In this document: piece by piece, positions 20,037 to 22,657 of the stretch | How positions within the stretch are numbered: position 1 is the stretch's first letter | Layout: each line of letters starts with the position of its first letter | Virus record (IMG/VR): IMGVR_UViG_3300031841_001633 | Location: 1-25,493 of that record | Strand: one strand, 5' to 3' | Length of the DNA stretch: 25,493 bases | DNA from: a virus | Program-made: the position numbers and the translations under genes | The notes under the pieces: model-generated | Seen by the model: only the letters and a program-made list of their open reading frames with translations | Told to the model about the DNA's origin: nothing | Database searches by the model: none

Positions 20037-20843
20037 CTACAGCAGCTCCGCTTCCTCTACTGCCACCTCACCATAATCCTCTGGCCCTTCGGGCATTGGT
20101 GGCTCTTCCTCAAAGACCTCAGCCTCAATGATAGCGGCGGAACGCGTGGTCGTTTTGTCTTGCGACGGTTTGTCGGTTTCCTGTACGTCTGTTGCATAGG
20201 TGTAGTTCTCGTTGTCGTGTTCCAACATCTGGTCCAGGTCCGCTGACGACGGCAGATACTTCGCGATACGGCGCAGCACAGACTTCTTAGCCATTTCCTC
20301 AGGCCACTCGGACCACGGGCCTCGACCACTTGCGCGACTGACACCTCGCACCTTGGCTATCTGCTCCATGTTCATCAGCTCAACGACCGAGCCGCCGTCC
20401 TTCATCTTGGCGACGGCGTAAACACCAATCATGGGCCCGCGCTCACCAAACCAATCAGGCTGGTGGTCAGGCACGTCGTCGTTCGCTGGGTTGTACGCAA
20501 ACTTGTCCTTCTCGTGCACCGTCTGCGCGGTGATGGTGCTTATCTGCCCAGAGTTTCGTAGCTTCTTGAGCAGCCCAGCAACCATAGGCATGTACTGCGC
20601 TGACCCTTTGAACTGGACGATAGCTGCCTCACGCCCATCGAGGATAAGTCCATCTTGCGCCGCCTTCTGGCACGCCGCGTAAATGGAGGAGCGATTGCAC
20701 TTGAGGATGCTGGGGTTGTTCTGCACTGCGCCAACGATGGTGCGCATGAACTTCTGACTAGGGATGTGTGCTGGCAGCACAGACTTAAACTGACGCTCGT
20801 GCAATGCGAGGTCTTTGGTGAATACTGCAATTTCGTTGCTCAC
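20037..20843 (-). CDS. RecT-family single-strand annealing protein
   Basis: A 268-residue protein on the minus strand. The N-terminal RecT pattern is clear: F-x-x-V-L-P-A-H-I (residues about 19-27), then a K-F-M-R-T-I-V-G-A-V-Q-N-N-P-S-I-L-K-C segment and AACQKAAQDGLILDGREAA. The core continues with YMPMVAGLLKKLRNSG, and IGVYAVAKMKDGG, EWPEEMAKKSVLRRIAKYLP. The last 50 residues are acidic and low-complexity, typical of RecT/beta-like proteins. It anneals complementary single strands during phage recombination. Its GTG start at 20843 overlaps the exonuclease stop (TAGTG), so the two are coupled. Strong call. Confidence 0.92.
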   Translation of the reverse strand: MSNEIAVFTKDLALHERQFKSVLPAHIPSQKFMRTIVGAVQNNPSILKCNRSSIYAACQKAAQDGLILDGREAAIVQFKGSAQYMPMVAGLLKKLRNSGQISTITAQTVHEKDKFAYNPANDDVPDHQPDWFGERGPMIGVYAVAKMKDGGSVVELMNMEQIAKVRGVSRASGRGPWSEWPEEMAKKSVLRRIAKYLPSSADLDQMLEHDNENYTYATDVQETDKPSQDKTTTRSAAIIEAEVFEEEPPMPEGPEDYGEVAVEEAELL

Positions 20844-21766
20844 TATTTCTTCTCCCGAATGGTGAATTGACGATAGCCCTTGCGACCGCCGTAAGTAGTG
20901 CCGACCATGTCAGCCGTGATGAGGGTAGGCTCGGTGTCCTTGGTGCGGCCACAGTTCAACGTCAGGTCTTCCGCAACCACCTTGCTGATGTCGTCGCCAA
21001 TGAGGTCAAGCATTTTCGCTTTCAGCTTCTTTGCTTCATCGTCTGCTTTCTTTGCTTCAGCCTTCCACTTTTTGTAGCGAGCCATGAAGTCAGACAGCTG
21101 CTCATCAGCTTCTATTGTTCCAGCACCGCCGCCTGGGTGTAGCTCAATAATTACGTCGGCGTCCATCTCGTAATTCGGCGTAGGCTCGACACCAGCCTCG
21201 ATGCTGCGCCAGAACTCAGATGCTTTCTTGCGAATGCCTGCGCCCACCTTGGGGTTGCGTTCGCGGAATATGAGGTGCAGTGAGTTGCCACCAACCAGTG
21301 CGGCGATGATGGCGCCGGGGCGCTCTGCAATCTCAAGCTGATGCTGCACCTGCACCTCGATATGGTCGGGTGCCTCGTCTTCAGTCCAGTTGTCTCGGTA
21401 AACCCACTGGTCGACGTTCTTGCATTCGATAAGCCAGCCAGCGTATTCGCCCTCGGCCACCTCGTAGTCGAATGACGAGCCGAGACGGGCGTAAGGGTCG
21501 CGCATGTAGTCCTTCAGGGGCTTGATGGCGGCGTTCAGTTCCATACCCGTTAGCTGGGCTATGCCTGACTCTAGGGCGCGGCCTGCGCGCATCCTGAAGT
21601 TATCGGGGAACTCAGGTGTCTCGCCACTGCGCTTGCGGTGCCAGAGTTCAAACTCGGTCATGTACGGGCTAAGGCCGAATAAAGCAGCAGTCTCAGTGCT
21701 GGTCAGGTCTTGCTTGCGCATGCCGAGCCAGTGCTGCTCGTTGTCTGGGGTGATGCGTTCAATCAT
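20843..21766 (-). CDS. YqaJ-type viral exonuclease (RecE/lambda-Exo-like)
   Basis: I place the start at ATG 21766 (MIERITPDNEQHW) because AAGGAG lies six bases upstream (21773-21778); an open extension to 21817 has no ribosome site. The 307-residue product shows the YqaJ core: W-L-G-M-R-K-Q-D-L-T-S-T-E-T-A-A-L-F-G-L-S-P-Y near residues 13-35, R-A-G-R-A-L-E near 60-66, the metal-binding D100 (SSFDYE), E115-x-K117 (WLIECKNV), and a following Gln-rich helix (VQVQHQLE, 138-145). The C-terminal third has a coiled-coil stretch (KKWKAEAKKADDEAKKLKAK). It resects double strands 5' to 3' to feed the RecT partner encoded next. Pairing of both genes in one leftward operon is typical of phage recombination modules. 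Confidence 0.92.
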   Translation of the reverse strand: MIERITPDNEQHWLGMRKQDLTSTETAALFGLSPYMTEFELWHRKRSGETPEFPDNFRMRAGRALESGIAQLTGMELNAAIKPLKDYMRDPYARLGSSFDYEVAEGEYAGWLIECKNVDQWVYRDNWTEDEAPDHIEVQVQHQLEIAERPGAIIAALVGGNSLHLIFRERNPKVGAGIRKKASEFWRSIEAGVEPTPNYEMDADVIIELHPGGGAGTIEADEQLSDFMARYKKWKAEAKKADDEAKKLKAKMLDLIGDDISKVVAEDLTLNCGRTKDTEPTLITADMVGTTYGGRKGYRQFTIREKK

Positions 21767-21780
21767 TGATGTCTCCTTTG

Positions 21781-21796
21781 TTGTCACGAGTGACAA
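21781..21796. promoter_or_regulatory. Operator-like dyad TTGTCAC-GA-GTGACAA
   Basis: A 16-bp sequence with perfect 7-bp arms and a 2-bp centre, 15 bases upstream of the exonuclease start. It covers the predicted transcription start of the leftward promoter, the standard place for a repressor. No repressor gene is identified; the small HTH protein at 22454 is one candidate regulator in the window. Confidence 0.55.
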
Positions 21797-21824
21797 TGAT
21801 GAATCAATATGACACATGCGTCAA
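21796..21824 (-). promoter_or_regulatory. Candidate sigma-70 promoter for exonuclease-RecT
   Basis: On the minus strand, TTGACG (21819-21824, five of six to consensus) is followed after 17 bases by CATCAT (21796-21801, four of six). The predicted start is near 21789, inside the dyad at 21781-21796. A second, imperfect 16-bp dyad with the same 7-2-7 layout (ATGACAC-AT-GCGTCAA, 21809-21824) covers the -35. Motif-based only. Confidence 0.45.
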
Positions 21825-21836
21825 CAACGAATTGAA

Positions 21837-21928
21837 AGGCGAAAGTTACCTACCTCGGGAGGCGAAAGTTACCTACCTCGGGAGGCGAAAGTTACCTACC
21901 TCGGGAGGCGAAAGTTACCTACCTCGGA
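21837..21928. repeat. Four tandem 23-bp repeats (iteron-like)
   Basis: Four head-to-tail copies of a 23-bp unit, starting AGGCGAAAGTT and ending ACCTACCTCGGG, at 21837-21859, 21860-21882, 21883-21905 and 21906-21928; the only difference is the last base of copy four. Each junction forms CCTC-GG-GAGG. The unit length is not a multiple of three and the array lies in the 177-bp gap between two leftward genes, so it is not coding. Exact directly repeated 20-odd-bp units upstream of replication or recombination genes suggest an origin or a multi-site regulator target. Confidence 0.85.
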
Positions 21929-21943
21929 GTCACCTGGAGCCCA

Positions 21944-22399
21944 TCAAGACAGCTCGAAATGCGGTGCATCAATGAACGGCCTGCGACCTTGCGACCTGCG
22001 TTTATCAACGTAGCTGTTCATGGCTTCCTCCATAGTTCCCCGCCAGACGCTGATATTGCTCACAGTCCAAGCGCCGCCCCAGCGCACCGAGGCGGTGTGG
22101 TGAATGGCTGCTTCTTTGAATGCGTCGGCAATCTCGTCGTACAGAGCAAGCTCCCAGCTAATGCGGGGCCCGATGTACGCGACGACATCAACCGCAAGCC
22201 CGGTCAAGTGTTTGCTGTGCATGGTCTTGGTTGCGCCACGGTCGTATAGCTCCTGCTGCGCTCTAACGGTTCTGAGTCCGCAGGTCACACCAAAGTCGAC
22301 CTCGGTGAGGCTGATAGCTTGGTGGACGATAGAGCATAGCTGCGGGTGTACGCCCTCAAGACGCTGTAGTGACCTTTTCGATAGCCTGTACGTTGACAT
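21944..22399 (-). CDS. Endolysin, peptidase M15 family (L-alanyl-D-glutamate or D-Ala type)
   Basis: A 151-residue enzyme from ATG 22399 (MSTYRLSKRSLQRLEGVHP), the start that matches the family's usual beginning; in-frame starts at 22414 and 22510 only add residues unlike the family and neither start has a strong ribosome site. The zinc motifs are present: S-K-H-L-T-G-L-A-V-D at 62-71 (H64, D71) and P-H-F-E-L at 146-150 (H147). The preceding FGVTCGLRTVRAQQELYDRG is also typical. It cleaves cell-wall peptides and needs the holin because there is no signal peptide. It is on the opposite strand to, and 6 kb from, the holin, so lysis genes are split. Its 5' end overlaps the divergent promoter. 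Confidence 0.88.
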   Translation of the reverse strand: MSTYRLSKRSLQRLEGVHPQLCSIVHQAISLTEVDFGVTCGLRTVRAQQELYDRGATKTMHSKHLTGLAVDVVAYIGPRISWELALYDEIADAFKEAAIHHTASVRWGGAWTVSNISVWRGTMEEAMNSYVDKRRSQGRRPFIDAPHFELS

Positions 22400-22453: not shown

Positions 22454-22657
22454 ATGAGAGACAACAAGAAACACCTGAAGCAGAGCATTATTGATAACGT
22501 TCGCAAGCACGGCAATGTTGCGAAGGTGTGCCGTCAGTTTTCGCTTACACGGCAGTGCGTTTACCTATGGAAGCAGCAGGACGCTGAGTTTTCCAGGGAC
22601 TTCATCCAAGCCGTTGCCGATGGCCGCAAGGCTATGCGTGCGTTCCTTGCTGGCTGA
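22454..22657 (+). CDS. Small helix-turn-helix DNA-binding protein, 67 aa
   Basis: Reads MRDNKKHLKQSIIDNVRKHG, then NVAKVCRQFSLTRQCVYLWK, then a helical end. Residues about 18-45 form a helix-turn-helix of the homeodomain-like/transposase type (NVAKVCRQFSLTRQCVYLWKQ), which also occurs in small terminases and short phage regulators. It is first in the rightward operon and its stop overlaps the helicase start (TGATG). It may regulate this operon or the nearby dyads; a small-terminase fragment is a less likely alternative because no large terminase follows. No clear ribosome site precedes ATG 22454. Confidence 0.65.
   Translation: MRDNKKHLKQSIIDNVRKHGNVAKVCRQFSLTRQCVYLWKQQDAEFSRDFIQAVADGRKAMRAFLAG

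Follow-up and report, generated by a model that had tools for sequence, protein, structure and literature searches.

The window, by which we mean the whole stretch of DNA analyzed here, is an IMG/VR fragment of 25,493 bases. Its gene content is that of a podovirus and includes T7-like tail and internal virion proteins, a holin, an SSB-like protein, a helicase, a VRR-NUC nuclease and a small HTH protein. Read along the minus strand, an M15-type lysin gene is followed by a tandem array of short repeats, a predicted promoter, a candidate operator, and then recE- and recT-like genes (Table 1). The start of the M15 gene was placed by alignment at the ATG at 22399, where the protein begins MSTYRLSK. 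The recE start was assigned to the ATG at 21766 behind AAAGGAGA, a choice backed by the loci L006 and L007 of two related phages and by the RecE alignment; the start at 21817 given in the ORF list is an upstream ATG that falls within the promoter. With recE beginning at 21766, the gap between the two leftward genes (21767-21943) has the length of 177 bp that the initial annotation had given it.

Table 1. Features of the array locus, in window coordinates
Feature	Position	Strand	Evidence
recT-like annealing protein gene	20037..20843	-	Pfam RecT 4.9e-43; PHROG 148
recE-like YqaJ exonuclease gene, 307 aa	20843..21766	-	Pfam YqaJ 1.7e-14; PHROG 434 RecE-like 2.5e-55
Candidate operator, TTGTCAC-GA-GTGACAA, a perfect palindrome covering the predicted start of transcription	21781..21796	.	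Retained in L001 (close relative)
Sigma-70-like recE-recT promoter: TTGACG (21824-21819), 17-bp spacer, CATCAT (21801-21796)	21796..21824	-	Consensus scan 9/12
Tandem array, 4 x 23 bp, unit AGGCGAAAGTTACCTACCTCGGG	21837..21927	.	Tandem Repeats Finder and 68-base self-match at lag 23
20-bp core copy 1, nearest the recE promoter, GCGAAAGTTACCTACCTCGG	21839..21858	.	No difference among the 7 copies in the two array-bearing phages
20-bp core copy 2	21862..21881	.	
20-bp core copy 3	21885..21904	.	
20-bp core copy 4	21908..21927	.	
M15-type peptidase/endolysin gene, upstream of the array	21944..22399	-	Pfam Peptidase_M15_4 1.5e-6; PHROG 465 endolysin 1.3e-52

Tandem Repeats Finder reports the array with a period of 23, 4.0 copies, 100% matches, 0% indels and a score of 182. 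The exact self-match at a lag of 23 compares with at most 13 bases in 20 first-order simulations examined at lags 10 to 59; the array is far beyond chance. Both results confirm the four head-to-tail 23-bp repeats described in the initial annotation. The repeats differ solely at one edge of the array, in the last base of copy 4. The unit is asymmetric, with no evident dyad, and a search of the window with an 18-base core, allowing up to three mismatches, recovered these four copies only (0.01 expected in shuffled sequence).

Profile searches with RecE and the helicase identified as close relatives only the phages represented by the loci L001, L007 and L072. The first of these, IMGVR_UViG_3300021356_000207 (20,917 bases; loci L001, L006, L155 and L156; RecE 96%, helicase 97%), carries three copies at the same place with the 20-bp core and the 23-bp spacing unchanged, so that the anticipated variation in copy number around a preserved unit holds in one close relative. 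Its internal 3-bp spacers are GGA at every position, as against GAG in the window, and this uniform difference shows that the two arrays were homogenized separately while core and spacing stayed as they were. The same comparison removes a suggestion that a dimer could sit at each CCTC-GG-GAGG junction: the junction is present in the window but reads CCTC-GGG-GAGC in the three-copy relative, and the idea of a junction dimer or hairpin was dropped because the 4-bp arms are not preserved. The close relative also encodes a TOPRIM-VapE primase-helicase and a large terminase, the gene for the latter being followed by what appear by eye alone to be portal and capsid genes. Among its leftward early genes is one for a Mom-like DNA modification protein (L001 8646-9095; PHROG 1384).

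L007 (IMGVR_UViG_3300006790_001452; RecE 78%, helicase 81%, M15 69%, HTH 66%) lacks the array but has its genes in the same order, with the same promoter layout and the palindrome. Thus, the recE-recT operon works without the array, which is lineage-specific and dispensable for the gene arrangement. The initial annotation had held that repeat-less relatives with an unchanged gene order would refute a role for the array as either iterons or regulator sites; L007 is just such a relative. At the place of the array, L007 has an ORF of 43 aa that by eye looks like a truncated XRE-type HTH protein and has a promoter-like sequence of its own (2630-2760). L072 (RecE 70%) shows no array in its 166 bp upstream of recE, a stretch that covers the expected position, and scanning over 80 additional, more distant RecE loci for tandem repeats revealed no array of this kind before recE. 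A prophage search of 84,980 species genomes returned distant RecE matches only. The array was found in a single IMG/VR record besides the window, giving two known arrays in total, and it is a young, lineage-limited feature.

The promoter sequence is identical in the close relative, and at the same place L007 has, by eye, TTGACA-17-CAATAT. The palindrome takes the form TTGTCA-ACGC-TGACAA in L007 (TTGTCA-N4-TGACAA), and the close relative carries the pattern TTGTCAC-N2-GTGACAA at three places: in perfect form at recE and at L156 13085-13100, and with one mismatch at L156 13020-13035. Both additional copies lie in the gap between divergent early genes, that is, in the early control region, making the palindrome a candidate phage-wide operator. 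Since it is both kept at recE and repeated in the early region, recE-recT is probably controlled by a phage-wide regulator distinct from whatever acts at the array.

Fourfold-degenerate sites differ between the window and the close relative at 73 of 454 positions (16%; 19% in the two flanking genes). Against this background, the two array-bearing phages show not a single difference over the 81 bp that span the operator, the promoter and the first core (21778-21858), an outcome with a probability, assuming independence, of about 7e-7 for the whole block and about 0.015-0.03 for the 20-bp core alone, the core being counted once because copies within one array are not independent. In this single comparison the core shows no changes in 20 positions where about 3 would be expected at the neutral rate, and 2 of the 3 spacer bases have changed. 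Constraint is therefore strongly supported for the promoter region and modestly for the core. It had been proposed that exact conservation of the unit means selection or recent duplication; the identity of copies within an array also fits duplication or homogenization and is no proof of selection, which is supported by the comparison with the close relative alone.

Taken together, the array is probably a series of protein-binding sites that arose recently, and not a proven replication origin. More specifically, we tentatively favor, with somewhat less than even confidence, the explanation that these putative sites form the upstream portion of the region controlling the leftward recE-recT operon. 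The four identical asymmetric 20-bp sites, spaced at 23 bp, would each hold one copy or one dimer of a putative DNA-binding protein, and the bound protein would act on the recE-recT promoter from upstream, while the palindrome over the start would serve a different regulator of the phage. Activation or another modulation of transcription would be the simplest effect, because the array occupies about -50 to -138 relative to the predicted start, with 14 bp between it and the -35 box. We infer the binding of a protein, the choice of this promoter as its target and the direction of the effect.

The initial annotation had offered a multi-site regulator array as one of two options, and that option is plausible. 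It fits the position of the array just upstream of TTGACG-17-CATCAT, a promoter recognized as a consensus match, which is conserved and furnished with an operator, and it fits the constraint on the sequence, which is well supported for the 81-bp block and less so, at about 0.03, for the core alone. A directional DNA site suits a unit that lacks an evident dyad and whose RNA, from either strand, folds no better than shuffled sequence. Upstream multi-site regulator arrays likewise consist of asymmetric site copies that end just upstream of the -35 box, with an operator over the start. The present array departs from them in its spacing, which is not near a whole number of helical turns, and in its absence from L007; with a 23-bp period each site would be turned by about 70 degrees from the one before, whereas cooperative regulators usually have their sites on one face of the helix, and this counts against the reading. 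A diverged single copy of the core with 4 mismatches (GTGAAAGTTACCTGCCTCTA) is present at L156 10769-10788 in the close relative, in the gap just before another small leftward gene and in the same orientation as at recE. The chance of such a copy is about 2%, the window holds no further site of this kind, and the copy is suggestive of an additional regulator site.

The main rival to a regulator-site array is a neutral or selfish minisatellite, a homogenized repeat with no function, in which a promoter-side stretch was duplicated by slippage or direct-repeat annealing and then kept uniform by expansion and contraction. We regard this as rather unlikely, though it accounts well for much of what is seen. 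Copies and spacers are uniform within each array while spacers differ between the phages, showing that the repeats turn over more quickly than the phages diverge; copy number varies; the array is missing from L007 and from the more distant RecE loci; and the conservation of the 81-bp block could rest mainly on the promoter and the operator. Minisatellite-type duplications in phage intergenic DNA share with the array this variable copy number and the homogenized copies. What sets the array apart from them is that its core and 23-bp spacing have remained constant at 16-19% fourfold divergence, yet the spacer has changed. A more far-reaching idea seems to us highly improbable: annealing by RecE-RecT, whose own promoter the array precedes, would itself expand and contract the repeats, and phage lineages would quickly come to differ in how many sites a regulator or initiator finds and, as a result, in recE-recT expression or replication.

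An iteron replication origin, the other option of the initial annotation, we consider unlikely. Here an initiator would bind the four direct repeats and melt the adjacent AT-rich 58 bp in the recE promoter region. Four 23-bp direct repeats beside an AT-rich stretch do have the general layout of iteron origins, whose units measure about 17-23 bp, and the flanking 58 bp (about 21780-21838) are AT-rich by eye; this same stretch is the promoter. The ori of phage lambda has four repeats inside gene O, and iterons of the lambda type resemble the array in their number, their direct orientation and their placement next to AT-rich phage DNA. The array of the window, in contrast, lies outside any initiator gene, and the replication gene of the close relative, encoding the TOPRIM-VapE primase-helicase, is about 4.3 kb away. 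No cognate initiator (Rep_3, RepA or O-like) is adjacent to the array or was recognized among the ORFs scanned in the window and the relative, a scan that covered two incomplete genomes and, in the relative, only part of the small ORFs. The GC-skew minimum that had been predicted at the array was sought in the close relative, where the cumulative minimum falls at about L156 12-12.5 kb, about 11 kb from the array at 0.66-0.73 kb; this is weak evidence, since skew follows gene direction here. L007 has the neighboring genes without the array, and no replication gene was seen in its 8.7-kb contig. With no iteron-type initiator recognized, a replication gene of the TOPRIM-VapE kind and a skew minimum elsewhere, iterons at an origin are unsupported.

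A parallel to an origin comes from other IMG/VR elements (L045-L047), in which tandem arrays containing AAAGTTACCT lie directly upstream of Rep_3 initiator genes. These Rep_3-type iterons of plasmids and phage-plasmids resemble the array in consisting of several near-identical asymmetric direct repeats of about 21-23 bp in an intergenic gap. They differ from it in that neither array-bearing phage has an adjoining or recognized Rep_3 gene, and the units matched over the 10 searched bases only. Kinship between the two kinds of repeat does not follow, because the elements were found by a two-copy search with that very 10-mer, which imposed the shared ten bases; the other matches to the pattern were, by eye, mostly protein-coding repeats. 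The L045-L047 arrays do have the look of genuine iterons and illustrate how such an array is paired with its initiator gene, a gene that was not recognized in the window. The loci L045-L047 belong to two AT-rich elements with long arrays of 21-bp repeats containing AAAAAGTTACCT. In L047 the array adjoins a Rep_3 gene, the Rep_3 domain having been tested there, and ParM-like and LexA-like genes are seen nearby by eye. These elements are probably phage-plasmids with iteron origins.

Two further explanations we judge very improbable. As an RNA element, the array would be a repeated leader in an M15-to-recE transcript, serving attenuation or the binding of a protein to RNA; with every gene here oriented leftward, readthrough transcription would pass through the array, but its folding is no better than shuffled (z -0.6 for the coding strand here, +1.8 in L001), no Rfam family scored above threshold, and the recE promoter lies downstream of the array. 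As a packaging or partition site, it would bind either the small terminase or the neighboring HTH protein of 67 aa (22454-22657); the latter lies 0.5 kb away and has weak small-terminase-like matches. However, the position customary for a small-terminase gene, immediately ahead of the large-terminase gene (L156 14379-15725), is taken in the close relative by a separate gene (L156 14045-14425), the HTH protein is retained in L007, which is without the array, and no partition genes were seen.

No match to the unit was found in sequenced phages, and plasmids gave one weak match, on a Halorussus plasmid. A 15-mer search of IMG/VR returned 38 stretches, about the number expected by chance for a collection of this size, each with a single match except the close relative with three, and a stricter two-copy pattern search returned the close relative only. 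A host or widespread regulatory site was considered and rejected: with up to two mismatches, the core gave 3 matches in 369 + 385 bacterial genomes against 9 for a reversed control, which is a weak test. The literature search yielded nothing relevant.

If the array is a set of regulator sites, it would constitute a compact control element on a recombination-gene promoter, recently arisen in a phage lineage, in which core and spacing are kept while copy number and spacer turn over, and it would offer a well-defined starting point in the search for the recE-recT regulator of these uncultivated podoviruses. As an origin, it would be of the iteron kind but with no recognized initiator. Either way, the general kind of element is already well known, and the array is a new instance of it. 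Lastly, Limnohabitans phage DC33 (PQ492659.1, locus L069) is filed under Inoviridae, yet it has RecE- and RecT-like genes together with an L-Ala-D-Glu peptidase and a 39-kb genome like the podoviruses found here, and the taxonomy line of this record looks wrong.
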